This document shows positions 9,324 to 31,883 of a stretch of DNA of 64,000 bases, piece by piece; the stretch's first letter is position 1; the number at the start of each line of letters is the position of its first letter. The stretch comes from Isoetes taiwanensis (Eukaryota > Streptophyta > Lycopodiopsida > Isoetales > Isoetaceae), in assembly GCA_021234155.1 (NCBI GenBank), contig JAJEKV010000026.1, positions 15,738,283 through 15,802,282 on the forward strand, read 5' to 3'. The notes beneath the pieces were generated by a model. That model saw nothing but the letters and a program-made list of their open reading frames with translations, ran no database searches and was not told the origin of the DNA. A program made the position numbers and the translations under genes.

Positions 9324-9332
9324 GCTACAGTG

Positions 9333-9334
<2 letters not shown>
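9324..9334. repeat. Left target-site duplication of the minus-strand LINE
   Basis: GCTACAGTGTT here is repeated exactly at 45027-45037, directly beyond the 5' end of the LINE. The left copy abuts the T-run that represents the LINE poly(A) tail on the + strand. Its length (9-11 bp; the last two T may belong to the tail) fits L1-type target-primed insertion. Confidence 0.75.

Positions 9335-9361
<27 letters not shown>
9333..9361. repeat. T-run and ATT microsatellite at left end of element A
   Basis: Eleven T followed by about six ATT units. This is interpreted as the outermost remnant of the LINE poly(A) tail (T on this strand), into which elements A and B inserted. The second copy of A's terminal repeat starts with only one ATT, so the microsatellite expanded at the left end. 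Confidence 0.6.
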
Positions 9362-9366
<5 letters not shown>

Positions 9367-9722
9367 ATGACTGGATTTTATGGATTGCTATACATTTTAC
9401 TCAACTATAGCTTTTATACCTTGGGGTCATGGTATGCCACTTCACTGGTTTTGTATATACAAGTGGTAAATACTAGTATTATGCAATATTTGGAAAAATA
9501 TCGTTATTGGGATTGAATACAACAGGTTTAGGGTTACAGAGTTAACCATATGGTCTGGCCGTGTGCTGGGCGTGTTTTGTGGATGCTGTATCTCAATCCG
9601 TTACATGCTATTGCTGGAATTTTGGATGGTATTTCTTTTTCCTAATATTTACGGGTACAAGTTCTATGATGGCTTAAGGACACGGCTGAGCAGCACGAAC
9701 CTTGCTAAGGTCTTAACCAAGG

Positions 9723-9730
9723 ATAAATAG
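9723..9730 (+). promoter_or_regulatory. TATA-like box upstream of element A exon 1
   Basis: ATAAATAG lies about 76 bases before the ATG at 9806 and recurs at 15849-15856 in the right repeat at the same place. Its role as a core promoter is inferred from position and sequence only. Confidence 0.4.
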
Positions 9731-9805
9731 AGGTGATCGGATGCACAATGCATAGGCACAGTGCTTGAAATCATCTTTGCCTTTGGATTATCCTTTAGGT
9801 GTAGC

Positions 9806-10134
9806 ATGGGCGTGAAGAAGGGAGATTTGAATATGGCAACCGGGAGAAATTAGAACGTGAGGCCAGCCTTGCTCCCAAGAAAAAGAAGGTGTGGGAATTT
9901 CATTAGAGCTACTAAATGTCCTCCAAATGTGGTGATTGTGGATGAGCCCAGTCTGATTTGGAAATTATTGCTAAGGATAAAGATGGTGGCAGTCTGGCTG
10001 ATGGGAAACCTGCACAAGATGTGAAGATCAGTGAAAATGCGAGCAATAAAAGGAGTGAGCCTGTTCAAGAGGCTGGATCTGCTGCATCTGCTGCACAATA
10101 CAAAGGGATTCCCCCTGGAGCGTCAAATATTCAG
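9806..10134 (+). pseudogene. Element A exon 1, left copy (frameshifted as given)
   Basis: This should be the functional first exon of element A. It starts MGVKKGDLNMATGRN and then hits a stop, whereas the right copy reads on as MGRKKGDLNMATRRKLERE. One base is missing at a CAGG-type word and two more compensating indels follow. The exon should end at CAG (10134) before a GTTATT donor, in phase 0. Because every indel against the right copy sits at a CAG-like word, I suspect consensus error over real decay. The protein has a PKKKKV stretch resembling a nuclear localisation signal. Confidence 0.5.
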
Positions 10135-11586
10135 GTTATTCTGGTTTTCTTGTAGGCTTTGGCACAATAATTGGATTTCTTTCTTGTGAGACTCTAGATA
10201 GAATATTAAGGTACTGAATGTTTTTATCTTAAATTGGGATCCCAGAATTATACAGGCTTGCATGATAACTTATGCCTAAGGCTATATAGCTTAGATGGTT
10301 CAGTAGGAATTATCATTATCTGATTATGAAGTCTTAAATCTTTAAAGGATTTAATAATGAAGGGACATCTGGCTAGGACAGATTATGATACTAAATTACT
10401 GAAAATGTTTCTAAGATTTCTATGGGTTGTACTTTGAGTGTTTATTATTTACTTGCTAATTGGACCGGACTCTTAATGATTAACTATAACTCCCTTAGGA
10501 GAGCAGAGCTTATTCTTTGTGTAATGCTTAGTAGATATTAGTCTACATTTCGGCTGCTTTTCCAGATTTATATGAGTGCTATAATAGATCTGATGGTCTC
10601 TCTACCATATTAACTAACTATTTGGGATCTACTTGCTAGATATGCTTTGTTGTAACCTGTACAAAATATTAAGAGATGTTGTTATCTTAGTATGTTAGAT
10701 ACATAAATCATTGCTAATTCTTATGGAAACTCAAGATCATGTGATGTTTACGGGTCTCTGGGGGATTTACACTAACATATTTATGATTATTAACTTACTG
10801 GTTGCATGCAAGTAGGTTATACCAGGTACTAGGTTTAAATGTGTTGCTAAATGGTAAAGTCTGGTGACCTTAGAAATAAGAATATGGAACTGATCTGCTC
10901 CAGCTTATAAACAGGGATATTAATGGAGCTGCCACTATTATATTTCTGTGTTCTAACTTCTATTGTGCTTTGACATGCTATTTGCTATGGTACATCTTTT
11001 ATAAACATGGTGAAGGGGATAACCCAAGAAACCTAATGCTTACCTATCAGTGCTGTCATTATTACCCTTCTTAGGCTAATTTTTGGCTGGTTTACTGCAG
11101 GTAACAAGGTTTCTTGCTCCATGCTTTGATGTATCTATTTGTCTAAGCTGATGGTTCAAGCAATACAAGACTTCAAGTAAGATTATTCCTTTGGGATGTC
11201 AAGATCTATAGCTGGAACTCATTTATGAGCTACATTACTGTCCTTTCTTATAGATGTTTATTTATGTAAACAGTGTTTTACTGTTTACCATTATGTAACT
11301 TTATGAATTTTTAATAATTTTGAAGGAATGGTTTTCAAAATATAATGTATAATGGTTAAGATTATTTAATGTCCTTGTCTTGGCCTAGTAAAATGTTCCT
11401 GTCATTTTGTCTAGGACTGCTAAAGGCAGACTTAGTATTTTCAAAGGGAAGTATTAAGTTTGGAAGTCTGGTTTCAGATTGGGGTTTTTTTTGTTAAACT
11501 CAGTTTTCTAGTTATACTAGAAACCAAGATTAGGACTAATACTACAGGAACAAAACATCGTCTAATGCATTTGCTTATTACTATAG
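10135..11586 (+). other. Element A intron 1
   Basis: Proposed intron from the GTTATT donor at 10135 to the acceptor CTATAG ending at 11586. It keeps exon 1 and ORF1 in phase 0. Presence of an intron in a retroelement is known for Penelope-like elements. At 11100/11101 a pyrimidine-rich tract ending TTTACTGCAG is followed at once by GTAACA. The same AG|GT arrangement occurs in element B and could be a recursive splice site or the edge of an alternative exon. Confidence 0.5.
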
Positions 11587-13134
11587 GCTGAGGTCAGAGT
11601 TGATGATTGTAACTATTGGATCAAAGAGCTCATTTTACTCAAGTATCATGAATGTGGGATTGAGAGTCCAAATCTGGCTGTACAGACCATTGTGGCATGT
11701 ATCAGGACCAAGGAAATCCATGAATACATTACATTCAAAGAGACCAACTTGGTGGACAAATCAAGATCACCTATCACATTCTTAGGCTTCAATGGTTGGT
11801 TTAAACTGCTCCACACTATGAAGAAGATGAATTTTGATTACAACAAATGTAAAGGTGCAATTCTGGAAGTCTATAATGATTTGGACAATATTCTTTACCA
11901 AAGAACTTGCCAAGAGGATGATATTGCCAGAAACTTCATGATTGGCCTTGCTGCCCTTGAAGAAGGTAATGGAATTTATCCTTCATTTGGTCCAAACAAT
12001 GATGATACTGATACTCCTTCCAATGAGGATGATATTTGCTTATTCTCTGATAAGGATTTGACAGAACCTGAACTATCCAATGGCCAAGCTGCCAATCAAG
12101 ATACATCCTATAGTGAACTGCAGCAGTCTGGTACTGAGCATGAGGAGGTCCCTAATCTTACATTAGGAAATTCGTCTTGTTTTCCCATTATTAATGAACA
12201 ATCTGTTGAAGGGCTTGCTGCTGCATACGATCACGCCATATGGAAGAGCCAAAATTTTGGTGCTCTTGCTCCTATCAACCTGGAAACTTGGATTGCATTG
12301 GCAGGTATAAACAAGGAAGAGATTGCACTGGCTAAGAGTTCAGCCACCAAACTTCAAAAAAGTTTTTCCTATATTAATCCTGATCTCAACTTTGATATGT
12401 CCTTCTTTGATGAAGTATGCATTAAGGACCCTGCTATTCAGGTTTGCCAAAAAGGCCATATGGCTTTCCCTAATGAGACTAGAGATGACTTCTTTCTCAA
12501 ACGGATGTGGCGCACTCACTGCCCCTATTTCAAATGCAAGTGCTTCAAAAATAAGAACTCTAACTGCCATTGTGGAATTATTTGGCTAGATCAGGGCATA
12601 TGGTTTTTACTAAACCATTTGGATAATGTTTATGAGGATTCTACTCCAATTATGAAGATGGTGGCAATTTCAAAACTTTTAAATAAGGTATTGAAGCCTG
12701 CGGTTATTGGATACATTTCATATCTGGAAGTTCGTAAAGTCATGATAAATATGACTTTAAAGTTTGCTGAAGATTCTAAGGCTAATCTGAAGAATATGTA
12801 TGGTAATAGCAGAATGGCAGATATTGTTGAGAAAACAATTAAACCTATCTCTTTCTTGCTGGAAAATGCTGAGCACAGTGGAAAAAACCAGGGCTCCAAG
12901 AAACAGAATTTGTTTAAAACCAAGTACAGTAAACATGTACCCAAATTTACAGCTAAATTGGCTCCAAGGGTCACTGTTGACCCGGCTTTAAACAAAAGAC
13001 AATATGTGCAGAATGAAGATGTACTGGCTGTCAGGCAGCACAGTGGCACAATACCTAGTGGTGGTAATAATGTTATCACGCTTGATGGAAATACCCCAGC
13101 TGATATTGAAGTTGTTCCTAATTCCCAAGAATAA
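11587..13134 (+). CDS. Element A ORF1: Cys-rich protein of unknown function
   Basis: Open from the acceptor at 11586 to the stop, 515 codons, with the first internal Met at 11692. It matches element B ORF1 along its whole length: the WIKEL start, YLGFNGWFK / FLGFNGWFK, an acidic middle, PNLTLGNSSC, GALAPIN.ETW and a conserved block RTHCPYFKCKC with a following C.C pair and IIWLDQGIWFL. The H-C-x4-C-x-C...C-x-C pattern could bind zinc or nucleic acid. I know no named family for it. It lies directly upstream of the RT and probably shares exon 1, so an RNA-binding or RNP role is a reasonable guess. The C-terminus ends in an acidic tail. Confidence 0.65.
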   Translation, partial: AEVRVDDCNYWIKELILLKYHECGIESPNLAVQTIVACIRTKEIHEYITFKETNLVDKSRSPITFLGFNGWFKLLHTMKKMNFDYNKCKGAILEVYNDLDNILYQRTCQEDDIARNFMIGLAALEEGNGIYPSFGPNNDDTDTPSNEDDICLFSDKDLTEPELSNGQAANQDTSYSELQQSGTEHEEVPNLTLGNSSCFPIINEQSVEGLAAAYDHAIWKSQNFGALAPINLETWIALAGINKEEIALAKSSATKLQKSFSYINPDLNFDMSFFDEVCIKDPAIQVCQKGHMAFPNETRDDFFLKRMWRTHCPYFKCKCFKNKNSNCHCGIIWLDQGIWFLLNHLDNVYEDSTPIMKMVAISKLLNKVLKPAVIGYISYLEVRKVMINMTLKFAEDSKANLKNMYGNSRMADIVEKTIKPISFLLENAEHSGKNQGSKKQNLFKTKYSKHVPKFTAKLAPRVTVDPALNKRQYVQNEDVLAVRQHSGTIPSGGNNVITLDGNTPADIEVVPNSQE

Positions 13135-13284
13135 TATACTACTTTGTAGTATAAGACATTTGTCAAAAACAGCTTTTGCTGATCCTTTCATTATTTAATA
13201 TTGCTTCTTAAAATCACCTGGTCTGTTTGATATGTTAAATATTTCTGTTCTTAATGGTTGATACTAATCCATTGTATTGTGTAG
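13135..13284 (+). other. Spacer between element A ORF1 and ORF2, ending in a splice acceptor
   Basis: 150 bases with stops in all frames after ORF1. It ends TTGTATTGTGTAG, and homology with element B ORF2 begins exactly after this AG. No clear donor follows the ORF1 stop, which favours ORF2 being reached by splicing from exon 1. Confidence 0.5.
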
Positions 13285-15343
13285 GTGCATAACAGAATTA
13301 TTACCAAAGATGCTAGTGGAAAAGACATCTGATTAATAATAAAGACGCAAATGATAGAAAAATAGTACATTTCACTTTTATTTCCAAAGCTTTGGATAAG
13401 TTAGATATCAGGAAGATTTTCAGTCTGATTTTAGAGGAGACTTTGCAAGAAAAAGGCATGGAATTGGTTGATAACACCATCTTTGCATGGAGATATGTTG
13501 AACAAATTAAAGACAAAGTTTATAGACCTTTTCTGTTTTTGCTGAAGGAAAGGATGTTATGTGCCCTTGTTCAAATCCCAACCTGGCCAAATTCATAGAT
13601 CCTAGAATTGGGCATGTAAGGACCACAGACTTGGGAATTGTCCACTGTATTAAGTTGAGAAAGGCATTCGCCAAAGGACTAAACCATATACCAGATTGCA
13701 GCCTTAGCATACAGAAATTTAGGGAGGAATTCCTAAGGTTATGCCAACAATTTTGGGAGGTCCACAAGTTTGAGATTATGAATCTCAATGATATTGACAT
13801 TGCAAACATTACTGAAATGCTACTGCAGTACGCACATATGGAAATAATACAGGTGAAGGAAGGATTACCCAATAAAAGATTTTTATGGGATGACCCTCAA
13901 GTGATTAAGAATGTGGAATGGTTAACACGGAATTTTTTCATTTCAGGGTTGGACAAAGCCAACAATAACCCATGTTTCATATGCCAGAAACATATACATG
14001 AGATGGCAATTGCAAGGCTGGGGGGGCCTGACTTTCGATCTACACATTGCCCTCCTGATCAAATATTGGAGGAATGCAGACAATACATACAACAAGCCAT
14101 AGGTTTGGAACATGATGAGGTTGGTAAATTGCCTTATCTTATGGCCAGCTATAAGGCACATAAGGCTGAATATAGATGGTTAACAAATGCAAGTAATACC
14201 ATCTTCTCAACTGTGGCTCAATGGGTTACTGCTATCTTGAATAATATTATGCAGATTTGGCCTCAGTTATGCCTTAGACAAACTGCCCCATACAGGTTAT
14301 TCAACAGAGTTAAGATCAATGCCTCTTGGATGGTAAGTTCTGCTTATGAGGTAGTTCTTAATCTACCTTACAAGATCAGCAGTGTTTTTGCAGCTGATAT
14401 AACAAAATGCTATGAGAATATACCCATTTTTGGTGATGATGGTATTATTGAAATTATGAATGATGTAACCGAACTAGCCTGGGAACACATGAGAAAGGAT
14501 CAACAGCTTATACACATGCTCATAAAGGAGAAAGCCGGTGGCTTTGAAATAAAGTGGGAAAGACATGTAAAAAGGGATTTAAACAAAACATGCTGGACAA
14601 TAGTGGAAAAAGATAAGTTTAAGGCCGTCAACAGTTGGTTGTTGTCACACTGTTTTTTACAATCAGGTAATGAAACATGGCAGCAGAGGAAAGGTATCCC
14701 TATGGGATTTTCGTGTAGCCCAGCTTGGTGTAATTTATACCTTGCCTGGCACGAATTAAGGTTTATGCTGAAACTTGCACACAATGGCAGATTTAAAGAC
14801 ATTAAGAAGTTTGAATGTGCAGCTAGATATATTGATGATCTTAGTATACTAAATGCTGGTTGCATTGATGAGTACTTTGACCCTGAAGCAGATTGCACGA
14901 TTTATAACATGCTTCATCTTGGTATAAAAGATGAAACTGAATACCTTATAGATGGCGATGGAAAACATGGGTGCTCCATTAATTTTCTCAATGTGTGCAT
15001 ACAGGTTTCTGACAGAAATCGTGGACTCTTCAGTATCTCAAGATATGACAAGAGAAATAAACTACCCTTTGAGGTTTACAAATTTATAAAAGCGGATAGC
15101 TGTCGTCCATACTGGCATGCTTTAAAAGTCATAATTTCACAAATTCTTCCATACGTGTATGCGCACTCAGACTTTGAATCTGCTGCTAAAGATATATGTA
15201 ACCTGATTAACAATTTTGTTATGAATGGGTTTGGCAGGAATGAGGTCTGCAAAACTGTCCTGGTGTACTTACAGGGTGAACAGTTTCCTGGTCTGCTGTA
15301 TAACTGTGGGGACATGATACATGCCCTTAAAAGAATGTTATGA
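13285..15343 (+). pseudogene. Element A ORF2: Penelope-like reverse transcriptase (two 5' frameshifts)
   Basis: Homology with element B ORF2 starts right after the acceptor at 13284, shifts frame near 13322 and near 13520, and is then open for 594 codons from 13559 to 15343. Motifs, counted from 13559, are: C-P-C and GHVRT.DL near residues 2-24; LDKANNN...C (a DKG-like box) near 140; YKAHKAEYRWL near 195; motif A AADITKCYENIP near 278 with its Asp; GIPMGFSCSP near 378; YIDDL near 424 with both Asp; ISRYDKR near 495. The catalytic triad is intact. The GIPMG box and DKG-like box point to Penelope-like rather than LINE or LTR enzymes. No endonuclease follows; the protein ends about 100 residues after YDKR. 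The two frameshifts may be decay or consensus errors. Confidence 0.7.
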
Positions 15344-15389
15344 AGGTTATAATTTTGTGCTGATAAAAATTAAACAGCATTGTGAGGGT

Positions 15390-15412
15390 AGGGCCTTGGA
15401 CAGCAAGGCCCT
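15390..15412 (+). promoter_or_regulatory. Element A 3' UTR stem-loop
   Basis: AGGGCCTTG-GACAG-CAAGGCCCT forms a perfect 9-bp stem about 50 bases after the RT stop. Element B has a related stem-loop at the same place (24837-24871), with covarying bases and a conserved GGGTAGGGCCT start. It may be the RT recognition structure; that role is inferred by analogy with other non-LTR elements. Confidence 0.6.
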
Positions 15413-15505
15413 GCACTCCTTGTTGTATGCATTGCGGTTATTTATGCACTATTCAGGCATAACCAGCAATTGCCCCCCGAGCAAAGGTCGGAGGTAGGTT
15501 TTTTT
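15413..15505 (+). other. Element A 3' end and T7 junction with the second repeat
   Basis: The unique 3' end GGTCGGAGGTAGG is followed by seven T (15499-15505) and then the 5' end of the next repeat. Element B ends in the related GGTTGGAGGAAGGA followed by T7 (24957-24963). This marks the true 3' end of one unit and the head-to-tail junction. Confidence 0.6.
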
Positions 15506-17604
15506 ATTATATGACTGGATTTTATGGATTGCTATACATTTTACTCAACTATAGCTTTTATACCTTGGGGTCATGGTATGCCACTTCACTGGTTTTGTAT
15601 ATACAAGTGGTAAATACTAGTAAATATCGTTATTGGGATCGAATACAACAGGTTTAGGGTTACAGAGTTAACCATATGGTCTAGCCGTGTGCTGGGCGTG
15701 TTTTGTGGATGCTGTACCTCAATCCGTTACATGCTATTGCTGGAATTTTGGATGGTATTTCTTTTTCCTAATATTTACGGGTACAAGTTCTATGATGGCT
15801 TAAGGACACGGCTGAGCAGCACGAACCTTGCTAAGGTCTTAACCAAGGATAAATAGAGGTGATCAGATGCACAATGCATAGGCATGTGCCGAAATCATGC
15901 TGCCTTTGGATTATCCTTTCGTGTAGCATGGGCAGGAAGAAGGGAGATTTGAATATGGCAACCAGGAGAAAATTAGAACGTGAGGCCAGCCTTGCTCCCA
16001 AGAAAAAGAAGGTGTGGGAATTTCGTAGAGCTACTAAATGTCCTCCAGCTGTGGTGATTGTGGATGAGCCCAGGTCTGATTTGGAAATTATTGCTAAGGA
16101 TAAAGATGGTGGCAGTCTGGCTGATGGGAAACCTGCACAAGATGTGAAGATCAGTGAAAATGAGAGCAATAAAAGGAGTGAGCCTGTTCAAGAGGCTGGA
16201 TCTGCTGCATCTGCTGCACAACACAAAGGGATTCCCCCTGGAGCGTCAAATATTCAGGTTATTCTGGTTTTCTTGTAGGCTTTGGCACAATAATTGGATT
16301 TCTTTCTTGTGAGACTCTAGATAGAATATTAAGGTACTGAATGTTTTTATCTTAAATTGGGATCCCAGAATTATACAGGCTTGCATGATAACTTATGCCT
16401 AAGGCTATATAGCTTAGATGGTTCAGTAGGAATTATCATTATCTGATTATGAAGTCTTAAATTTTTAAAGGATTTAATAATGAAGGGACATCTGGCTAGG
16501 ACAGATTATGATACTAAATTACTGAAAATGTTTCTAAGATTTCTATGGGTTGTACTTTGAGTGTTTATTACTGCTGTGCTAATTGGACCAGACTCTTAAT
16601 GATTAACTATAACTCCCTTAGGAGAGCAGAGCTTATTCTTTGTGTACGTTAGTAGATATTAGTCTACATTTCGGCTGCTTTTCCAGATTTGTATGAGTGC
16701 TATAATAGATCTGATGGTCTCTCTACCATATTAACTAACTATTTGGGATCTACTTGCTAGATATGCTTTGTTGTAACCTGTACAAAATATTAAGAGATGT
16801 TGTTATCTTAGTATGTTAGATACATAAATCATTGCTAATTCTTATGGAAACTCAAGATCATGTGATGTTTACGGGTCTTTAGGGGATTTACACTAACATA
16901 TTTATGATTATTAACTTACTGGCTGCATGCAAGTAGGTTATACCAGGTACTAGGTTTAAATGTGTTGCTAAATGGTAAAGTCTGGTGACCTTAGAAATAA
17001 GAATATGGAACTGATCTGCTCCAGCTTATAAACAGGGATATTAATGGAGCTGACACTATTATATTTCTGTGTTCTAACTTCTATTGTGCTTTGACATGCT
17101 ATTTGCTATGGGACATCTTTTATAAACATGGCGAAGGGGATAACCCAAGAAACCTAATGCTTACTTGTCAGTGCTGCCATTATTACCCTTCTTAGGCTAA
17201 TTTTTGGCTGGTTTACTGCAGGTAACAAGGTTTCTTGCTCCATGCTTTGATGTATCTATTTTTCTAAGCTGATGGTTCAAGCAATACAAGACTTCAAGTA
17301 AGATTATTCCTTTGGGATGTCAAGATCTATAGCTGGAACTCATTTATGAGCTACATTACTGTCCTTTCTTATAGATGTTTATTTATGTAAACAGTGTTTT
17401 ACTGTTTACCATTATGTAACTTTATGAATTTTTAATAATTTTGAAGGAATGGTTTTCAAAATATAATGTATAATGGTTAAGATTATTTAATGTCCTTGTC
17501 TTGGCCTAGTAAAATGTTCCTGTCATTTTGTCTAGGACTGCTAAAGGCAGACTTAGTATCTTTAAAGGGAAGTATTAAGTTTGGAAGTCTGGTTTCAGAT
17601 TGGG
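15506..17604 (+). repeat. Element A direct terminal repeat, right copy
   Basis: Second copy of 9362-11484. It stops at a T-run that corresponds to the eight-T tract inside intron 1 of the left copy, so it contains promoter, exon 1 and truncated intron 1 but no ORFs. The AG|GT double site is at 17221/17222. Confidence 0.75.
15928..16257 (+). CDS. Element A exon 1, intact copy in the right repeat
   Basis: 110 codons in frame from ATG 15928 to the CAG before a GTTATT donor. It begins MGRKKGDLNMATRRKLERE, has a basic PKKKKVW segment that could act as a nuclear localisation signal, then an acidic and Ser/Ala-rich tail ending GASNIQ. The start is supported by the identical MGRKKGDLN start in element B. 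In this right-hand copy the exon is not followed by ORF1, so it is probably not functional here, but it shows the intended sequence. In a full copy it would join ORF1 in phase 0. Confidence 0.6.
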
Positions 17605-17627
17605 TTTTTTTTTTTTTTTTTTTTTTT
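17605..17627. repeat. T-run between elements A and B
   Basis: 23 T. It forms the right border of A and the left border of B, and is interpreted as part of the LINE poly(A) tail or its extension by insertion. Both borders of both elements are T-tracts. Confidence 0.65.
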
Positions 17628-17639
17628 AATTAAATGTAT

Positions 17640-18260
17640 GAATGGCTTTGGTAGACAAGATAAAGCATGCCAAATGTAAGTCCAAAGTTGAAGAAAAGGA
17701 AAGACCAATGGTTAAACTTGGGTACATTTACGGCACAAGGTTACTAGGTAATCCTTGAAGTACCTAGGCTAGGCAAAACCAGCATGCACAGTATGGTGCT
17801 ATAACATGAAAACATGCAGGAAATAAGCCTCGGGCTGGATGGAAATACGTGAATAACTAGGGTAAGCATGATTGAGCATACCAAAATGGAGTATGACCAA
17901 GGGTTAAACTGAGGTGTATATACCGTACAAGGATACTTGGCAATCTTTGGATTACCTAGGCTATGTAAAACAAGATGTACATGAAGTAAATAAGCCTGGG
18001 GCTAGCTGGAAATATTTGAATAATGTGGCACAAATAACTATGGTTGACATGATAAAGCATACCAGAGGTGAGTCCGAAGTTGATGAAAAGGGAAAGACCA
18101 ATAGTTAAACTCAGATATGTATACTACACAATGTTACTTGGTAAACTTTGAATTACCTAGACCATGAAAAACCAAGATGCACACTAGGGTGCTTTAACAC
18201 GCAGCAAACAAGCCCGGGGCTTGCTAGAAATACTTGATTAAAGTTGCACATGTGTAAAAA
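17640..18260 (+). repeat. Three diverged tandem monomers in element B 5' region
   Basis: Units of roughly 180-240 bases start at about 17663, 17877 and 18056. Each runs from AAGCAT(G/A)CCA through a GGTTAAACT-like phrase, an ATTACCTAGGC-like phrase, AATAAGCC(T)CGGGCT and GAAATA. The same array is in the right repeat from about 24975. Promoter-proximal tandem monomers are common in retroelements and may set transcription strength. The small frame inside unit 2 is not convincing. Confidence 0.55.
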
Positions 18261-18744
18261 CACAGGTAAAAACCATGGGGTACTTGATGTATAGCTCTAT
18301 TGGCTGTTTATTGGCAAAAAAGAAATGTTATTGTGAGCATCTAAAAGGATGTTAATTTTAATTTCGTAACTGATGATATGGTAAAGCATAAGTCTTAAAG
18401 AGTGATAGGGTGATACATGAGCTATTTGTTATGAGCTATCTATTATGATTGCAAAATACAAATTACACTTGATGGCTTTAGCGGGTAACTTATTGTGGAA
18501 CATTTCTAGATACAACGAAAACCTTTGGCAAATGTAACATATGATGTATCGACTGAAGTGTTGTCGAAATGTTGGACGGCTTAACCTACTGTCATTTTTA
18601 GGGCAAAAAGTGAGCAACTGCTTGTCGGCTGGTTTCTCCAATAATCCGGCCAGAGGAAAGCTCTGGCCACATCATCGCTACAGCTAATGCACAGATAATA
18701 GAAAAGGTAAGTACTGGTTGTTGCTTAGTGCTGGGAGCGTAAGC

Positions 18745-18752
18745 TATATAAA
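18745..18752 (+). promoter_or_regulatory. TATA box of element B
   Basis: TATATAAA lies about 127 bases before the first ATG of exon 1 (18872) and is repeated at 26060-26067 in the right copy. The function is inferred from sequence and position. Confidence 0.5.
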
Positions 18753-18820
18753 ACAAGTCTAGGTAAGGACTGCCGGTTGGATTATATATACTGAGGATGG
18801 GCTTTATGATAAACTGCAAA

Positions 18821-18842
18821 ATCCGCATTGCATGGTGCGGAT
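18821..18842 (+). promoter_or_regulatory. 5' UTR hairpin of element B
   Basis: ATCCGCA-TTGCATGG-TGCGGAT, a perfect 7-bp stem, about 30 bases before the ATG. It is preserved in the right copy. Outer bases GAGGAT (18793) and ATCCTC (18841) could form an alternative pairing. The core does not match a hammerhead ribozyme. Confidence 0.45.
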
Positions 18843-18871
18843 CCTCCTACTTTGTAGCCACGTTGCCATAG

Positions 18872-19231
18872 ATGAGCAGCGAGATGGGTAGGAAGAAGGG
18901 TGACTTGAATTATGCTACTAGGAAAAGGCTGGCACAAGAGAAATTGGATAATAGAAGCAAGAAGAATCTGTTTCAGTATCATAAGGTTGCAAGGGTTGCT
19001 GAACCAAAGAGTAGTGCAGGGGCAGTTGGATGCAATGTGAACATTCAAGAGGAATTGCCAAATCAGGGGATTGCTGAACTGCCTACAGCAGAGATGATTT
19101 CCACTAACAAAAATGCAGAAAAGGGGATGAATATAGGTCTAGCAATGACCAAAGCTTGTGGATCTACAAGCCTGAAGCATGTTGCTGATGAAAATCCTAG
19201 CAAGCCCAATGGAGTGGAGCGCACTTCTCAG
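18872..19231 (+). CDS. Element B exon 1
   Basis: 120 codons from ATG 18872 (MSSEMGRKKGDLNYATRK), ending at CAG before a GTTCCA donor, phase 0. An inner ATG at 18884 gives exactly the MGRKKGDLN start seen in element A and may be the real one. The rest is basic, then Asn/Glu-rich, and poorly conserved with A. Joined to 20648 it continues into ORF1 in frame; joined to 22754 it would continue into the RT in frame. The copy in the right repeat has lost 10 bases after AAAAGGCT. Confidence 0.6.
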
Positions 19232-20647
19232 GTTCCAAAATTTAGTTCAATTTTCTACATGGTGATTTTAGATATGGATATCTTTATGAATGGGATCTGG
19301 TATAATGCAATTTGTGTTATCTTAATTATGTAGATAGATGCTGCTAAGTATAAATCTGCACAGAAATTATAATGGCTTTAGCCTAGTGCGTAGATCATTG
19401 GATTATTAAGCTTATGAATTAATATCTGAAATATGGTGTGAGATTATTGCATAATGTCATTGTTCCTGCATGGAAATTTAACACAAAACGGAGGTATTTA
19501 AGGAATATAGAGTAATAAGATTTGATCTGATTTATCATTCCGCTGATGTCAAGATAGATCTGGATAACATATTAGCCATCAGGATTTTTAAATATTTCTT
19601 AATAAATGAAAGTCAATTACCTGGATCTTTGGTTCTAGGCTGGTAAATAATGATAAATATGACTTAGTAACATTGTTGAAAATGTTTGCAAACCGATATG
19701 GCTGTCTTACTGAAATTTATGCTAATTAGAACTGCTGCATAGATGGTGAAGCTTTATGGTTGGTAACCTGGATTTGCCTAGCAGCATATAGACGAATGTA
19801 GATCAGAAATCAGAGATGGCTCTTATATAATCTAAGGGATAAAACAAACAATAGTTCTGCTAAAATGAATCCATATGGGGATAAAAGATCTGATTATGTA
19901 TGCAGTGTGTTGTACTACAGATAAACTTGTTATATGACAGATCTGAAGCTTAGGCCTATGACTTATAATAGATTCTGTAGTTGACTGAGGCAAGTTTGAG
20001 CAGTAAATATCTGTTGCTAAACATATAGACATGTGTGAACTATTGTGAACAGTGTTTAATGATTCTAAATGTCCTTACCCCATGATATGTATGTGAAATG
20101 AGCAGGGTGAAGGGCCATAAACCTAAAAAGTCCCATGACACCTGCTACCCTCAGCATGGCAACCATACTAATGCTTGTTTTTGTTGTTTTGGGTGCAGGT
20201 AACAGGACTTTTTACTCCCTGCTATGTTTTATTTAAAAGATGGAAGATGGACAAAAATCGGAAATTCTTTCTCACGAATTGGTCTTGAAGACTCAACATA
20301 AACTTGGAATTACTTGGAATTACTGTTCCTACGACTTTTAGTCTTATGTTTATTGTTGTTGCATACTTATAAGATTTGGATTTATTTGATTTTATGTCTG
20401 ATGTATTTTGAAAACAGTTTGAGTTACAATAAAGTACTCTTGTTATGGGAAAACGTAACCAGATCACATGGCCTTGTTGTTTAAAGTCACCTACTTAAAT
20501 ACAAGGGTTGCTTATTGAATCGAAATTTGGTCCTTGAAAAGGTCTAAACTAGATTAAAATCTGTCTTTTGACAGGTCTAAGGTTTTTGTTTTAATTCCAG
20601 CTTCTTGGTTATACCAAGTTCCTTGATTTTGGTTACATAATGTGTAG
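19232..20647 (+). other. Element B intron 1
   Basis: Proposed GT-AG intron from 19232 to the acceptor TAATGTGTAG at 20647. It includes the AG|GT double site GGGTGCAG|GTAACAGG (20198/20199) that is shared with element A, preceded by a strong T/G-rich tract and a CTAAT branch-like word. The TTTTTGTTTT tract at 20583 is where the right terminal repeat ends. Confidence 0.5.
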
Positions 20648-22206
20648 GTGAATTGCTATTTGGCTGTTTATGACATTCTAACAATGAATTTGGAGCATGA
20701 GCCAGTCAATGACAATGTATGGATCAAGGAGCTTATTGCTTTACAATATGATAAATGCGGTATTGACAGTCCAAATTTTGCTGTTCAAAATATTCTGGCG
20801 TGCATCAAAGGCAAGGATATCCACTCTCTCATTACATTCAAAGAATGCAATTTACTTGATAAGAGACTTTCCCCAGTAATGTACCTTGGTTTCAATGGCT
20901 GGTTTAAAGTATACCAACAGATTAAGATGGTGAACTTTGAATTTTCTAAAGCTAAGGAGATTATTGCTGCTGTTTATGCTGGTATAAGCAGTATTTTATA
21001 TGAAAGGACCTGCCTAGAAGACTTACAGGCCAGCAAATTTGTGGCTGGACTTTCAGCCTTAGAAGCTGCCAATGACATCATACCCTCGTTTGATAGCAAA
21101 AATGATGAAGTTGCTATCAATACACAGAATAATGAGGAATTTCAAGGGTGTTTATTTTCTGAAGCTGATTTGGCAGAAGATACTTTGCAAAATATTGAAG
21201 TTGACAATAGTGGTGGTAATGGCTTAGAAGTTGAAGTTCCTAACCTCACTCTTAGCAATTCTTCATGCTATCCAATACTTATTGAACAAACCGTTGAAAC
21301 ATATTCTGCTGTTTATAATCATGCCATTTGGACCAGCCTAAATTTTGGAGCCTTGGCTCCAATAAATGTTGAAACATGGATGGCCTTGTCTGGAGTAACT
21401 AAAGATGAAGTAAAGTATGCAAAGACAGCTGCAACTAGACTTGAAAAGGTATTTACAACTCTTGATGTTAATTTACCTTTTAAAATGGACTTCTTTGGCC
21501 TGACTTGTCTGAAAGATACCATTATCCAAGTTGGACAGAAAGGTCACATGGCCTTTCCTAATATTGAGCGTGATGACTTTTATCTTAAACGCATATGGAG
21601 GACTCATTGTCCTTACTTCAAATGCAAATGTGAGAAGAGAGAAAAGAACAATAGGAGAAGAGATGATGTATGCAAATGCACAATTATTTGGCTGGACCAA
21701 GGGATATGGTTCTTAATGAACCACATGCATGAGCTGTATCCTGATGCCTCACCAATTATGAAGATGGTCACATTGACGAAATTCCTAAATCAGGAACTCA
21801 AACCTGCTGTAATTGCATATATTGGATACTTGGAGGTGAAAAGACCATGCTGGACATGACTATGGCCTACGCTGAGACTCCGGAAAAAAACCTTAAAGTC
21901 ATGTTTGGCAACAATAAAGTTGATGATATTGCTGAGAAGATGATTAAACCAGTCACTTTTATGAGCATGCAAAACCCAAATAAGCGCACTGGAATTATGC
22001 AGAAAGCAGTATATGTTTCCAAAAATGTTAGCACAAATTATGTCATCAAGGCTCCTAAGTTGCCACCAAGGATCATGGTGGACCTAAAGAATGCTGACAA
22101 CATCATTAAGAATACTGAGGTTGGTTGTTCCAGCACGGATGAGATAGTTACATCTCTAACTGATGATATGCCTCCAAACGTGGAAATTGTGGCAGATACA
22201 CAGTAG
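20648..22206 (+). pseudogene. Element B ORF1: Cys-rich protein (one frameshift)
   Basis: Homologue of element A ORF1, open from the acceptor at 20647 for 403 codons to 21859, then continued in another frame from about 21840 to 22206. The break is one missing base in GAGGTGAAAAGACC; a fragment of the same gene at 32737-32907 has GAGGTGAGAAAGACC, so the ancestor was intact. Conserved blocks are LGFNGWFK, PNLTLSNSSC, GALAPIN.ETW, RTHCPYFKCKC followed by C-K-C, and IIWLDQGIWFL. Function unknown. The Cys/His block may bind zinc. Order exon 1 - ORF1 - RT is the same in A. Confidence 0.6.
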
Positions 22207-22230
22207 GATGCAGTATTCTCTTTACAATTT

Positions 22231-22780
22231 TCCAGCTAGGAAATATGTTCCTAAGCTTGGGCGGATAGTATATAAAATGGCCATTTGGCTTGGATTTTCA
22301 ATCCATACTAAATAAAGATTTCTTTCTGTTGAAATAATGTGTAAAGTTCATTTTAGCTCATGAACTCATAATATTTCTATAGGTCACTGATATGGACCAG
22401 AAATATTGTTAAATCTTCCAGATAGAAATTTATTTTTTATGGGCTGATATTATATGAACTGGCCATGTGGCTTGGAATTTAAATCCATAATAAAAATACT
22501 TTATCTTCTATCTTCTGTTGAAGTAATATGAAAACTTTGCGTATGCTGTTAACGCATATTATTTCTGGAAGTCACGAATAAATGAACCTGAACTATTGTT
22601 TAAAATTTTCCAGCTAGGATTTGTATTCCTTAGTATGGATAGACACTTCATGAATTGGCCATTGGGCTTGGATTTTGAATCCATACTAAATATATTTTAT
22701 CTTCTATCTTCTGTTGAAGTTATATATAAAATATGTCAATGCTCACTCTGTAGGTCACTGATAAAGCGACCAGAACCATT
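22231..22780 (+). repeat. Threefold ~190-bp tandem repeat between element B ORF1 and ORF2, each with an acceptor-like end
   Basis: Units start at TCCAG near 22231, 22417 and 22609. Each carries TTGGCTTGGATTTT.AATCCATA, CTTCTGTTGAA and, near its end, an acceptor-like phrase: CTATAGGTCACTGATATGGACC (22377 on), CTGGAAGTCACGAATAAATG, and CTGTAGGTCACTGATAAAGC. The last is the proposed ORF2 acceptor (AG at 22752-22753). The corresponding spacer in A is only 150 bases and unrepeated. Confidence 0.65.
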
Positions 22781-24829
22781 ATCAGAGATGTAAGCAGAAA
22801 ATTACACCTGGTAAGTCAAAAAGTAGAGGACAAGAAATATATAGTACATTTCACCCTTTTTAATAAAGCGCTCGAAAAGTTCAACATAAAAAGAATATTT
22901 TACATTGGGTTAGAAGAATGTTTGGAAGAAAGGGGCATTGAATTAATGGATCAGACTATCTTTTCATGGAGATATATTGATCAATTAAAAGACTTTGCTA
23001 TTTTTGCGGATGGTAGTAAGGTAAAATGTGCCTGTAAGAACCCAAATCTCAAGAGATTCATTGATCCCAAGATTGGGCATGTTAGAACCATTGATTTGGA
23101 AATCATTCATTGCCCAAAACTTAGAAAAGCATTTGCTAATGGATTTAATCATATCCCTGACCACTCCTTCAATGTTGAACAATTTATGACTGAATTTGCT
23201 CTTGCATGCAAACAGTTTTTTATGGTTCATAAATTTAATCTTCTAGATCTCACGGATAATGATATCAAAAACATTACTGATGTCCTTATGCAATATGCCC
23301 ATATGGATATTGTGGAGTTCAAAAACAAGATGACACCAAAAAGGTATCTATGGAATGATCTTGAGGTCAGAAAAAACATTGAATGGCTAAACAATAGCCT
23401 ATATATTGCTGGATTAGACAAAGCTGCTAATAATGCTGCCTTCATATGCCAGAAGCATATCCTGGATATGGCCATGAACAGGCTGGACAGTAATGATTTT
23501 GAAAAATGCATAGAATCCACTGAAGATATAAAAGTGAAGTGCATTAAGGATATTCAAGCATTTTTGGGCTGTGACACAGGAATACAGAAAAATCTGCCAT
23601 ACTTAATGGCTACATACAAGGCACATAAAGGTGAATATAGATGGCTGACTAATGCCCATGATACGTTGTTTTCTGAGCTGGCATCCCTTATTACAGCTAT
23701 TCTGAATAACTTCATTGAAAACTGGCCAAACATTTGTGTTAGAGCCACTGCCAGATATAGAATGTGGAGTAAAAAACCTATAAATGCATGTTGGATGGTG
23801 AACTCGCTTTATGATGTGGTTTTAAACCTACCTCTAAAAATACATGATGTTTTTTCTGCTGACATCACTAAATGTTATGAAAATATTCCGATATATGGGG
23901 ATGAAGGCATTATTGAGATAATGAATGCCATCACAGACATGGTTTGGCAATATATGATGGAAGACTGCCATTTATTTGACCTGATACTTAAAGTTAAGAT
24001 TGACATGGTACAAGTTAAATGGGTCAGATCACATAGTGCTAAAGAATATGTAAGCTGGAAGCTGGTCACCAAAAATGAATTCAAAAACATGAACTCATGG
24101 CTATTGATCCACTGTTTCTTGCAAATGGGTACAAATACTTGGAGGCAAAACAGGGGCATTCCAATGGGATTTGCATGCAGTCCTGCATGGTGCAATTTGT
24201 ACTTGGCCTGGTTTGAACTTAGGTTTATAATTAAGCTGGCTCAATCGGGAAGAACAAATGACATTCACAGATTTCAGCATGCTTCAAGGTTTATAGATGA
24301 CTTAAATATTATCAATGGTGGACATTTAAGTGAATTCTTCTCTAGTCAATCACAGCTGTCAATTTACAACCTGAACCACTTGGGAATTAAGGATGAAACC
24401 GTCTACAGCTCCCAAACTGGTATGGACCATCCTATTGGCATTGAATGCAATTTCCTGAACATTACTTTCAAAGTTATTGACCATGAAAGAGGTATTTTTG
24501 AAATTAGTAGATATGACAAAAGATGCAAGTTACCATTTGATGTGGAGAAGTTTATAAAAGCATCCAGCTGCAGGCCATATGGGCATGCATCAAAGGTCAT
24601 CATTTCACAGGTTCTACCATATGTCTATGCCCATTCCAGTGCTTTTAACGCAGCTAAAGACTTATATGATTTAATCTGTGCATTTTGCAACAATGGATTT
24701 TCTCGGAAGGATATAATACAAAATGTGATGGGTGTACTGCTGAATGAAGATCTTCCAGGAACACTGTACAACATAAAGGACATGATTCATATTCTGAAAA
24801 ATTTGTGCACCACTGATCGTAAGATGTGA
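22754..24829 (+). CDS. Element B ORF2: intact Penelope-like reverse transcriptase
   Basis: Open without interruption from the acceptor at 22753 (691 codons; first Met at 22922 gives 635). Order of motifs, counted from 22922: KCACKNPNLKRFIDP and GHVRTIDL near residues 38-60; LDKAANN..F.C, a DKG-like box; YKAHKGEYRWL; motif A SADITKCYENIP near 311; GIPMGFACSP near 412; RFIDDL near 457 (F replaces Y of YIDD, both Asp kept); ISRYDKR near 530. The triad is intact, so the enzyme could be active. No endonuclease, RNase H or integrase domain is visible. Upstream in-frame sequence (VTDKATRTIIRDVSRKLHL) aligns with element A, supporting the splice acceptor as the true start of this exon. A 3' stem-loop follows. 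Confidence 0.75.
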   Translation, partial: VTDKATRTIIRDVSRKLHLVSQKVEDKKYIVHFTLFNKALEKFNIKRIFYIGLEECLEERGIELMDQTIFSWRYIDQLKDFAIFADGSKVKCACKNPNLKRFIDPKIGHVRTIDLEIIHCPKLRKAFANGFNHIPDHSFNVEQFMTEFALACKQFFMVHKFNLLDLTDNDIKNITDVLMQYAHMDIVEFKNKMTPKRYLWNDLEVRKNIEWLNNSLYIAGLDKAANNAAFICQKHILDMAMNRLDSNDFEKCIESTEDIKVKCIKDIQAFLGCDTGIQKNLPYLMATYKAHKGEYRWLTNAHDTLFSELASLITAILNNFIENWPNICVRATARYRMWSKKPINACWMVNSLYDVVLNLPLKIHDVFSADITKCYENIPIYGDEGIIEIMNAITDMVWQYMMEDCHLFDLILKVKIDMVQVKWVRSHSAKEYVSWKLVTKNEFKNMNSWLLIHCFLQMGTNTWRQNRGIPMGFACSPAWCNLYLAWFELRFIIKLAQSGRTNDIHRFQHASRFIDDLNIINGGHLSEFFSSQSQLSIYNLNHLGIKDETVYSSQTGMDHPIGIECNFLNITFKVIDHERGIFEISRYDKRCKLPFDVEKFIKASSCRPYGHASKVIISQVLPYVYAHSSAFNAAKDLYDLICAFCNNGFSRKDIIQNVMGVLLNEDLPGTLYNIKDMIHILKNLCTTDRKM

Positions 24830-24836
24830 CAATATT

Positions 24837-24871
24837 GGTGGGTAGGGCCTAGCAACAAGGTCCTACTCACC
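24837..24871 (+). promoter_or_regulatory. Element B 3' UTR stem-loop
   Basis: GGTG.GTAGGGCCT-AGCAACA-AGGTCCTAC.CACC: a 9-bp inner stem (one G-T pair) plus a 4-bp outer stem, seven bases after the RT stop. It has the same position and GTAGGGCCT core as in element A, with compensating changes. Confidence 0.6.
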
Positions 24872-24963
24872 TTGTTGCTTTTTATGTTGCTCAAAATTGA
24901 TAGATATATACTGTCAAGCAATAACAGGCCCATCTGACCAATGGTTGGAGGAAGGATTTTTTT

Positions 24964-27897
24964 ATTAAATGTATGAATGGCTTTGGTAGACAAGATAAAG
25001 CATGCCAAATGTAAGTCCAAAGTTGAAGAAAAGGAAAGACCAATGGTTAAACTTGGGTACATTTACGGCACAAGGTTACTAGGTAATCCTTGAAGTACCT
25101 AGGCTAGGCAAAACCAGCATGCACAGTATGGTGCTATAACATGAAAACATGCAGGAAATAAGCCTCGGGCTGGATGGAAATACGTGAATAACTAGGGTAA
25201 GCATGATTGAGCATACCAAAATGGAGTATGACCAAGGGTTAAACTGAGGTGTATATACCGTACAAGGATACTTGGCAATCTTTGGATTACCTAGGCTATG
25301 TAAAACAAGATGTACATGCAGTAAATAAGCCTGGGGCTAGCTGGAAATATTTGAATAATGTGGCACAAATAACTATGGTTGACATGATAAAGCATACCAG
25401 AGGTGAGTCCGAAGTTGATGAAAAGGGAAAGACCAATAGTTAAACTCAGATATGTATACTACACAATGTTACTTGGTAAACTTTGAATTACCTAGACCAT
25501 GAAAAACCAAGATGCACACTAGGGTGCTTTAACACGCAGCAAACAAGCCCGGAGCTTGCTAGAAATACTTGATTAAAGTTGCACATGAGTAAAAACACAG
25601 GTAAAAACCATGGGGTACTTGATGTATAGCTCTATTGGCTGTTTATTGGCAAAAAAGAAATGTTATTGTGAGCATCTAAAAGGATGTTAATTTTAATTTC
25701 GTAACTGATGATATGGTAAAGCATAAGTCTTAAAGAGTGATAGGGTGATACATGAGCTATTTGTTATGAGCTATCTGTTATGATTCTTTAGCGGGTAACT
25801 TATTGTGGAACATTTCTAGATACAACGAAAACCTTTGGCAAATGTAACATATGATGTATCGACTGAAGTGTTGTCGAAATGTTGGACGGTTTAACCTACT
25901 GTCATTTTTAGGGCAAAAAGTGAGCAACTGCTTGTCGGCTGGTTTCTCCAATAATCCGGCCAGAGGAAAGCTCTGGCCACATCATCGCTTCTGACTAATG
26001 CACGGATAACGAAAAAGGTAAAATCTTTGGTTGTTGCTTAGTGTCTTTGGGGCGTAAGCTATATAAAACAAGTCTAGGTAAGGACCGCCGGTTGGATTAT
26101 ATATATACCGAGGATGGGCTTTATGATAAACTGCAAAATCCGCATTGCATGGTGCGGATCCTCCTACTTTGTAGCCACGTTGCCATAGATGAGCAGCGAG
26201 ATGGGTAGGAAGAAGGGTGACTTGAATTATGCTACTAGGAAAAGGCTAAATTGGATAATAGAAGCAAGAAGAATCTGTTTCAGTATCATAAGGTTGCAAG
26301 GGTTGCTGAACCAAAGAGTAGTCACGAGGCGCTTGGATGCAATGTGAACATTCAAGAGGAATTGCCAAATCGGGGATTGCTGAACCGCCTCACAGAGATG
26401 ATTTCCACTAACAAAAATGCGAGAAAAGGGGATGAATATAGGTCTAGCAATGACCAAAGCTTGTGGATCTACAAGCCTGAAGCATGTTGCTGATGAAAAT
26501 CCTAGCAAGCCCAATGGAGTGGAGCGCACTTCTCAGGTTCCAAAATTTAGTTCAATTTTCTACATGGTGATTTTAGATATGGATATCTTTATGAATGGGA
26601 TCTGGTATAATGCAATTTGTGTTATCTTAATTATGTAGATAGATGCTGCTAAGTATAAATCTGCATTTAAATTATAATGGCTTTAGCCTAGTCATGTGAG
26701 ATCATTGGATTATTAAGCTTATGAATTAATATCTGAAATATGGTGTGAGATTATTGCATAATGTCATTGCTCCTGCATGGAAATTTAACACAAATATTTG
26801 AGATATAGAGGTATTTAAGGAATATAGAGTAATAAGATTTGATCTGATTTATCATTCCGCTGATGTCAAGATAGATCTGGATAACATATTAGCCATCAGG
26901 ATTTTTAAATATTTCTTAATAAATAAAAGTCAATTACCTGGATCTTTGGTTCTAGGCTGGTAAACAATGATAAATATGACTTAGTAACATTGTTGAAAAT
27001 GTTTGCAAACCGATATGGCTGTCTTACTGAAATTTATGCTAATTAGAACTGCTGCATAGATGGTGAAGCTTTATGGTTGGTAACCTGGATTTGCCTAGCA
27101 GCATATAGACGAATGTAGATCAGAAATCAGAGATGGCTCTTATGTAATCTAAGGGATAAAACAAACAATAGTTCTGCTAAAATGAATCCATATGGGGATA
27201 AAAGATCTGATTATGTATGCAGTGTGTTGTACTACAGATAAACTTGTTATATGACAGATCTGAAGCTTAGGCCTATGACTTATAATAGATTCTCAGAAGT
27301 TGGATCGAGGCAAGTTTGAGCAAGAAATATCCATTGCTAAACATATAGACATGTGTGAACCTGTTGAACAAAGTGTTTAATGATTCTAAATGTCCTTACC
27401 CCATGATATGTATGTGAAATGAGCAGGGTGAAGGGCCATAAACCTAAAAAGTCCCATGACACCGCTACCCTCAAAGATGGCAACCATACTAATGCTTGTT
27501 TTTGTTGTTTTGGGTGCGTAATGACTTTTACTCCCTCGCTATGTTTTATTTAAAAGATGGAAGATGGACAAAAATCGGAAATTCTTTCTCACGAATTGGT
27601 CTTGAAGACTCAACATAAACTTGGAATTACTTGGAATTACTGTTCCTACGACTTTTAGTCTTATGTTTATTGTTGTTGCATACTTATAAGATTTGGATTT
27701 ATTTGATTTTATGTCTGATGTATTTTGAAAACAGTTTGAGTTACAATAAAGTACTCTTGTTATGGGAAAACGTAACCAGATCATGGCCTTGTTGTTTAAA
27801 GTCACCTACTTAAATACAAGGGCTGCTTATTGAATCGAAATTTGGTCCTTGAAAAGGTCTAAACTAGATTAAAATCTGTCTTTTGACAGATCTAAGG
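24964..27897 (+). repeat. Element B direct terminal repeat, right copy
   Basis: Second copy of 17629-20582, containing monomers, TATA box (26060-26067), hairpin, a broken exon 1 (from about 26189, frameshifted after AAAAGGCTAAATTGG) and intron 1 up to the T-run. Many differences from the left copy fall on CAG/CTG words, for example GTGCGTAATGACTT for GTGCAGGTAACAGGACTT near 27515. Confidence 0.75.
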
Positions 27898-27918
27898 TTT
27901 TTTTTTTTTTTTTTTTTT
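27898..27918. repeat. T-run joining element B to the LINE 3' end
   Basis: 21 T. On the minus strand this is the poly(A) tail following the LINE 3' end (27919). It is also the right border of element B. Confidence 0.65.
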
Positions 27919-28240
27919 GAAGAACTGTGTCATCAATATATTAAAAGAATGGTAATGTTACAAAGCAAGTGAGGAGGAAGGAGAACTGCCCAAAAGAGAC
28001 AGCAATACCTTGACACTCCACAACAAACTCACGTAAAAACCGCAACTCTACCGCTGTACAAACCCACCATCACCATCTACAACACCCAAGAAGTCCCGCC
28101 AAATGGCAAACTTCCGCTCTACTAATCCCGGAACACCGAAGCTTTGAAATAGCTTGTACTGAAGTCGAGGAATCGAGAGGCCGCAGTCGGAATCCCCCGA
28201 AGATCCACAACCGCCGCCGCTTCCAAATCAGCCACACCAA

Positions 28241-31267: not shown

Positions 31268-31272
31268 GTCCC
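31268..31272. repeat. Left 5-bp target-site duplication of the gypsy element
   Basis: GTCCC, repeated at 42508-42512 directly outside the other LTR. Five bases is the normal duplication size for Ty3/gypsy integrases. Confidence 0.8.
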
Positions 31273-31870: not shown

Positions 31871-31883
31871 CTCCCCCACCAAA
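31871..31883 (-). promoter_or_regulatory. Polypurine tract of the gypsy element
   Basis: Minus strand reads TTTGGTGGGGGAG immediately before the 3' LTR start TGTTAGTCC, the expected position and composition of the plus-strand primer for LTR retrotransposons. Confidence 0.6.

Follow-up and report, generated by a model that had tools for sequence, protein, structure and literature searches.

A stretch of 64,000 nucleotides from the genome of the lycophyte Isoetes taiwanensis (assembly GCA_021234155.1, contig JAJEKV010000026.1, positions 15,738,283 to 15,802,282), hereafter the window, carries at 9357–27907 two related retroelements, A and B, which were delimited by self-comparison of the window. 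They probably represent a lycophyte family of Penelope-type retroelements that lacks a recognisable endonuclease (EN) and inserts by internal initiation of reverse transcription primed from an A-tract. The members share a common anatomy, a reverse transcriptase (RT) of the type found in telomerase (TERT) and Penelope-like elements (PLEs), a conserved first open reading frame (ORF1), conserved splice-site sequences, recurrent borders, and a location in T-tracts at a fixed orientation. The family bears on how PLEs without an endonuclease insert away from telomeres: the copy borders record both the apparent start of reverse transcription, a U-run next to a hairpin that covaries, and the target, a homopolymer that is often the tail of a long interspersed nuclear element (LINE). 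As many copies record start and target alike, a simple testable rule follows, namely that an A-tract primes on the U-run. Among retroelements, PLEs are considered the nearest to telomerase, and such priming parallels that of a DNA 3′ end by telomerase on its own RNA. The conserved ORF1 has no known fold, and it is accompanied by two conserved RNA structures and a leader exon that may serve two proteins.

Architecture and genomic copies

In both elements, a direct repeat of 2–3 kb is followed by a Cys-rich ORF1, the RT, a structured RNA 3′ end, and the second repeat. Each unit runs from a TATA-like box through a leader exon encoding MGRKKGDLN, an intron, ORF1, and the RT exon to the structured 3′ end, a purine tract, and T7 (Table 1). 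An initial annotation of the sequence had proposed this common order together with divergence at the DNA level, and both hold; the two RTs are 56% identical, and the start that it gave for the B RT, 22922, is corrected here to 22754. The repeats flanking A are 96.8% identical and those flanking B 95.7%. Element A has decayed in the N-terminal part of its RT and in its first leader exon, and the ORF1 of B is broken by one frameshift near 21837, where other genomic copies read through. Element B also contains diverged internal repeats of about 200 bp, at least two in the U3-like part (17646–18250) and three between ORF1 and RT (22221–22743). A 164-bp piece of B-type ORF1 at 32737–32900, 98.8% identical to 21690–21852, lies beside a doubled 12-mer inside a long terminal repeat (LTR) retrotransposon and represents a captured fragment.

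Table 1. Elements A and B and the retroelements that enclose them (window coordinates)
Feature	Position	Strand	Remarks
LINE target-site duplication, left copy	9324..9334		GCTACAGTGTT; then T-run and (ATT)n, start of the tract with A and B
A 5′ repeat	9357..11495	+	U3-like region, TATA-like box near 9724, leader exon (decayed), first part of intron
A internal T8 (U-run in RNA)	11485..11492	+	End point of 3′ repeat
A junction hairpin	11505..11523	+	TTTCTAG-TTATA-CTAGAAA; not in 3′ repeat
A ORF1	11587..13134	+	Cys-rich, without known family; start is a phase-0 splice acceptor
A RT frame	13526..15343	+	Upstream N-terminal part decayed
A structured RNA 3′ end and purine tract	15390..15500	+	Tract GGAGGTAGG, then T7
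A 3′ repeat	15501..17616	+	Open leader exon 15928-16257 (MGRKKGDLN)
B 5′ repeat	17622..20592	+	TATA box near 18746
B leader exon	18884..19233	+	MGRKKGDLN...; phase-0 donor CAG/GTT
B putative intron 1	19234..20647	+	Up to ORF1 acceptor TAG/GTG; predicted from sequence
B internal T-run	20583..20592	+	End point of 3′ repeat
B junction hairpin	20604..20618	+	CTTGG-TTATA-CCAAG; covariation
B ORF1	20648..22206	+	Two overlapping frames, frameshift near 21837
B RT exon	22754..24829	+	TERT/PLE type; follows in-frame TAG of its splice acceptor
B unit 3′ end	24839..24878	+	Two interleaved 9-bp helices: S1 24839-24847/24861-24869, S2 24852-24860/24870-24878
B conserved purine tract	24943..24963	+	GGTTGGAGGAAGGA, then T7 = unit boundary
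B 3′ repeat	24957..27907	+	Ends at internal T-run, joins LINE poly(A) tail
LINE 3′ part	27920..31272	-	Poly(A) tail = T-run to about 27919; RVT_1, zf-RVT
LTR retrotransposon nested in LINE	31273..42513	-	RT_RNaseH domains; LTRs about 90% alike
LINE 5′ part	42514..45026	-	Separated by the LTR retrotransposon; delimited by eye from broken frames
LINE target-site duplication, right copy	45027..45037		

The search for further copies proposed in the initial annotation was carried out on the host assembly (1,658,258,908 bases in 1110 contigs) and lists at least 65 RT matches, a lower bound with 64 of 4726 candidates scored. Many of these are open over their full length, and identity to B lies for the most part between 56% and 95%. 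Twenty loci were examined over up to 10 kb each, giving 22 copies with the two units of the window. Direct repeats and ORF1 each recur with the RT in 19 of the 20 loci (L029 has neither in the stretch examined), from which it follows that the layout of A and B is not a product of chance. The two repeats of a copy are about 92–99.6% identical, and at L011 the element is preceded by the RT end of another unit, forming a head-to-tail array. The left flank of L024 ends like the 3′ end of another family element, a second stack in a T-tract resembling that of A and B. Endonuclease-lacking PLEs are, according to the initial annotation, mostly known from telomeres. A telomeric location was rejected for the present family, since 18 of the 20 copies lie in contigs of 3.7–53 Mb, with 0.3 Mb or more between them and the contig end, and, assuming the TTTAGGG type of telomeric repeat, no exact doublet occurs in 35 loci and none with one mismatch in the window.

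The reverse transcriptase

The DKA, GIPMG, Y/FIDD, and YDKR boxes claimed for the RT, the first of them a DKG-like LDKA, are all present; across 40 aligned RTs, GIPMG and the DD pair are invariant and the remainder nearly so. The further claim that the enzyme is PLE-like is supported by the profile search that the initial annotation had suggested. When the family profile was aligned to a PLE profile with hhalign, residues 216–661, a span that opens with the DKA box and closes in the C-terminal region, were matched with a probability of 97.7 and an E-value of 2e-12. The PLE profile comprised 28 of the best 120 proteins listed out of 6316 obtained at E<=1e-3 with a PLE consensus, and a GIY-YIG domain is present in many of these best 120 of 6316 matches. 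A PLE hidden Markov model (HMM) made from 101 of the 120 listed proteins (600–900 residues), run on small databases with filters off, placed 41 of 45 family members above the inclusion line (B, E 4e-9; A, E 2e-6) and none of the LINE fragments in those databases. The precomputed domain PF26215 is assigned to family member P0012 as well as to almost every one of the 120 listed PLEs, and in a tree confined to the A/B family and eight canonical PLEs, A and B group together at full support.

The predicted structure of the RT (predicted local distance difference test, pLDDT, 89.6) points in the same direction. Its 15 best PDB matches, which fill the first 15 rows in both fold lists, are all telomerase RTs, at about 10–15% identity over the aligned residues, and LINE, LTR, and group II enzymes come at best within 3 to 5 Z units of the top TERT row. 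The RNA-binding domain of TERT sits N-terminal of the RT core; the fold match likewise reaches N-terminal of the core, and no Pfam TERT domain was matched. A PDB sequence search with alignment A1, and with alignment A8 of 11 ORF1 sequences, gave no relevant match.

Relatives of the RT from named sources belong to Selaginella, Cymbomonas, and Prymnesium. The wide and poorly described clade suspected in the initial annotation does reach beyond plants; the animal relatives mentioned there were not recovered in the searches for RT relatives. Four SELMODRAFT gene models of Selaginella moellendorffii (P0023, P0029, P0038, and P0039) have an RT that is 28–33% identical, and in P0038 (E 9e-5) and P0039 (E 2e-8) the RT is preceded by an ORF1-like stretch, as detected by BLASTP in a six-sequence database. 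Viral contigs yielded no relatives by alignment A1 or by the PLE consensus, and Foldseek against viral proteins returned mostly RNA polymerases and polyproteins (best E 1.9e-7). The prokaryote contigs yielded one weak bacterial RT, from Anaerolineales (L001, 8001–8465), which is 24% identical to the family across query residues 451–619.

ORF1 and the lack of a recognised endonuclease

Profile and domain searches with 11 ORF1 sequences matched no known family, as expected for the novel ORF1 of the initial annotation; Pfam at E<=1 returned two single-member matches (E 0.09 and 0.21), which were regarded as chance. No GIY-YIG domain was detected at E<=0.1 in 40 RTs by a library that does detect GIY-YIG in the canonical PLEs P0065 and P0129, and the statement that no endonuclease is visible is borne out in the ORF1 and RT searches alike. 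RNase H, integrase, protease, and gag domains were not found in ORF1 or RT, and membership of the LTR retrotransposons was rejected for want of an RNase H, integrase, or protease domain. Nor does the family show the LINE combination of an apurinic/apyrimidinic (APE) or restriction-like (REL) endonuclease, a poly(A) 3′ end, and no LTR. Rfam, applied to 9000–28200 of the window only, gave a sub-threshold snoRNA match and no ribozyme family at E<=1, hammerhead included.

Borders, T-tracts, and LINE tails

The copies lie in long T-tracts with their sense strand on the T strand, an orientation that is fixed. At 16 of 17 left ends, the copy begins with the unit start after a long stretch of T; at the right, the internal U-run is where the 3′ repeat terminates, with more T following, in 15 of 17 ends (those of L010, L014, L018, and L022 fall outside the stretch examined). 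Including the element's own T6–8, the runs are at least 10 long at 16/17 left ends and at least 11 long at 15/18 right ends, and those at inner junctions are 5–7 long at 16 of the 21 resolved; short or missing runs at some junctions of L011, L016, L019, and L022 were scored as misses. Chance was rejected as a source of the T-runs, given that a T of 10 or more occurs in 0.135% of random 57-bp windows against 16 of 17 left ends. The unit boundary itself, a purine tract followed by T and ATT, is found in 19 of 22 copies, with no motif match in L026, L027, and L029.

The T-tract that holds A and B can be traced to a LINE. The 11-mer GCTACAGTGTT occurs in the window only at 9324 and 45027, a length attained by 3 of 4921 random placements, and this duplication encloses A and B, the T-run to their right being the poly(A) tail of the minus-strand LINE. 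Since the right end of B adjoins the LINE 3′ end and the left copy of the duplication precedes the array, A and B lie inside the LINE tail. Long right flanks are available for seven copies, the window and six of 5 kb, the remainder being too short to class, and in five of the seven the tract is, or resembles, a LINE poly(A) tail. Two of these flanks, L030 (for L013) and L033 (for L021), contain a minus-strand LINE RT; that of L015 begins with the 3′ end of the window LINE (88.6% over 245 columns); and in L028 no LINE coding was recognised and a 13-bp duplication lies 1.2 kb away, matched by none of 45 controls. In the duplication scan, the number of the 45 controls that did equally well or better was 1 for L013, 7 for L015, 40 for L020, 34 for L021, 13 for L025, and 0 for L028. 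The match in L013 lies inside the LINE ORF and was hence not counted, and for L015, 7 exact bases were seen by eye right at the end of the LINE match, the scan having picked another place. No LINE duplication was found within the 5-kb flanks of L020, L021, and L025; the LINE may extend beyond the flank in L013 and L021.

Conserved RNA structures

In 20 of 22 copies (there is no motif match in L023 or L029), the internal U-run is closely followed by a hairpin, the inner stem of which lies 23–29 nt from the start of the run. The hairpin is located inside the unit, past the point at which the 3′ repeat stops. Among 19 distinct rows, five of its seven pairs are changed on both sides, a count equalled by 4 of 500 shuffles, and its covariation score was reached by none of 500. 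Its two outermost pairs are broken in 10 and 11 rows, and the region folds no better than shuffled sequence (z -0.15 for A and -0.27 for B), the minimum-energy fold of B being without the hairpin; it is therefore covariation that speaks for this putative structure.

Compared with 200 shuffles, the stem-loop at the 3′ end of the unit folds better (z -3.3 and -4.8). In an alignment of 19 rows, two from the window and 17 from host loci, 97.4% of the cells of helices S1 and S2 are paired and 7 of 18 pairs are changed on both sides, a result matched by 0/500 shuffles; as the rows are related, the shuffle numbers for this structure and for the hairpin are not probabilities. There is no linker between the two helices, so they cannot both be fully formed at once and may alternate. 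An alternative outer helix is weaker than S1 and S2, pairing in 86% of the cells with double changes in one of six pairs.

Splice-site anatomy

The retained introns claimed in the initial annotation find a counterpart in conserved splice-site anatomy, as read from DNA sequence alone. A leader exon with KKGDLN is present in 22/22 copies, with a phase-0 AG/GT donor at codon 103–125 in 16. The RT frame follows an in-frame TAG that ends a TAG/G acceptor in 21 of 22 copies (18 at the aligned start and three within a few codons), element A having the acceptor with the frame shifted; the same holds for ORF1 in 18 of 21. Because in-frame acceptors precede both frames, the simplest reading is that a single leader exon would be spliced alternatively to ORF1 or to the RT.

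A model for insertion and its alternatives

In the proposed mechanism, a promoter in the repeat would give rise to a pre-mRNA, the leader exon of which, supplying a start codon and a basic stretch, would be spliced to either the ORF1 or the RT exon, and an unspliced RNA reading into the second repeat would serve as template. The RT would bind the junction hairpin and begin copying at the U-run just 5′ of it, the primer being the 3′ end of an A-tract, whether nicked, broken, or a nascent poly(A) tail (often that of a LINE), annealed to the U-run. Copying would proceed through the unit to the T7 at its start, where the A7 end of the cDNA could anneal to the opposite homopolymer strand, leaving an element inside a T-tract and framed by LTR-like repeats. 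The stop of the 3′ repeat at a U-run 5′ of a covarying hairpin is as expected for internal initiation, and priming from an A-tract is proposed because the U-run at the start point and the target A-tract can pair. A bolder extension is entertained only tentatively, namely that this is a telomerase-like clade with no need of an endonuclease of its own, a LINE hitchhiker whose U-run would pair with the 3′ A-tract of LINE poly(A), perhaps during LINE integration, and whose two proteins would share one start codon through alternative splicing of the leader exon.

Several observations weigh against this account. A transcript starting at the TATA box would lack the upstream part of the first repeat, so that a full left repeat is left unexplained; read-through RNA of arrays and strand transfer as in LTR elements are candidate routes to it. 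Splicing, start sites, and template RNA are inferred throughout, and an in-frame ATG lies 3–36 nt past the acceptor in 9 of 21 ORF1 frames, such that ORF1 might start independently. The predicted ORF1 structure, from five sequences, is of very low confidence (pLDDT 33), and the protein could conceal a nuclease. As to the affiliation of the RT, a group II RT (12.1) is level with the weaker TERT rows in VIA Z, one LTR fragment stands above the PLE HMM inclusion line (E 0.006), the HMM scores on single members are modest (best 28.5 bits), and the sole NCBIfam match of both window RTs is a weak one to a group II maturase (E 0.0013–0.0036, 16–18 bits against a cut-off of 300). With regard to the target, the 3′ repeats of L011 and L016 end elsewhere than at the U-run, no LINE was recognised in two of the seven long right flanks (L020 and L025), for which reason any T-tract may serve, and a target duplication of the element's own cannot be seen in a homopolymer.

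Three other explanations deserve consideration. The complete left repeat would be accounted for if the family were LTR-like, with a TERT/PLE-type RT, true LTRs, a polypurine plus-strand primer, and strand transfer before insertion into a T-tract. The recurrence of the borders (16/17 left and 15/17 right ends), the identity of the repeats (about 92–99.6%), and the purine-rich tract directly before T6–8 at the unit boundary (19/22 rows) agree with this; the lack of RNase H, integrase, protease, and gag domains in ORF1 and RT, the head-to-tail array of L011, as in PLEs, and the TERT/PLE fold and profile of the RT render it unlikely. Least credible by far is an origin of the repeats by tandem duplication or unequal recombination, with T-runs grown by slippage and no special insertion mechanism. 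T-runs do expand easily and A and B do stand side by side, but diverged copies on separate contigs (RTs 56–95% identical to B) repeat the same pair of borders, and the LINE target duplication frames the array as a whole.

Passive insertion is a variant of the A-tract model rather than its opposite. An RT without endonuclease would copy at any exposed 3′ end, the T-tracts being sites of breakage or slippage and the LINE tails merely the commonest long A-tracts. The two flanks without a LINE are in keeping with this, and EN-deficient PLEs are stated to use exposed 3′ ends and double-strand breaks for priming (PMC3846280). The fixed orientation and the U-run end at 15 of 17 right borders favour base pairing between A-tract and U-run over random ends, leaving the passive form somewhat improbable.

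Comparison with known elements

The A/B family is likely to be a new variant of PLE-type elements. With the EN(+) PLEs of Penelope/Poseidon type, it shares a TERT-related RT, direct pseudo-LTRs (pLTRs), and tandem copies, and also AT-rich insertion and a presumed internal start of reverse transcription at a stem-loop beyond the junction of pLTR and ORF (PMC11167929; PMC3846280); the retained introns of that type have a putative counterpart in its splice-site sequences. It is unlike them in having no GIY-YIG domain, DKA in place of DKG, a separate ORF1, repeats of about 2–3 kb with leader exon and intron, and a U-run start that can pair with an A-tract, and no hammerhead ribozyme was found in the window. 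A purified Anolis PLE cuts AT-rich DNA, most often at ATT located downstream of the junction between its own ORF and pLTR, and initiates reverse transcription at an internal stem-loop that lies beyond the pLTR-ORF junction (PMC11167929). The A/B family resembles this geometry, with ATT after T6–8 at the ORF-repeat junction and an end point that adjoins the hairpin past the repeat. Unlike the Anolis start site, which is not homologous to the cut DNA, the U-run and the target A-tract can pair.

An EN(-) PLE of Selaginella, reportedly described by Gladyshev and Arkhipova in 2007, may or may not belong to the present family. EN(-) PLEs such as Athena and Coprina share the lack of a recognised endonuclease, and one known host is likewise a lycophyte, records from Selaginella, Pinus, and Picea being given in a review (PMC9033089). 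Spike-moss PLEs are telomere-associated according to another (PMC12477314), and the A/B copies differ from the EN(-) type in being interior and not beside telomeric repeats. TERT provides the best fold match, which continues past the RT core on its N-terminal side, and it differs from the present family, a multicopy mobile element with ORF1 and repeats. The four related proteins of Selaginella moellendorffii, which are annotated as fused gene models, were compared at the protein level. No description of such elements was met in the open-access literature searched, which leaves out key papers on EN(-) PLEs and on Naiad/Chlamys, and "Penelope" has 0 occurrences in the main text of the Isoetes taiwanensis genome paper (PMC8566536).

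Other genes in the window

On the minus strand at 45828–50093 are two long open frames of 550 and 740 amino acids, parts of which are about 64% alike at the DNA level; the 740-residue frame is a pentatricopeptide repeat (PPR) protein by Pfam, and the 550-residue frame looks PPR-like. Many PPR genes are reported for this genome (PMC8566536). An exon of an acyl-acyl carrier protein desaturase-like gene (FA_desaturase_2, E 9e-99) is located at 52503–53156.

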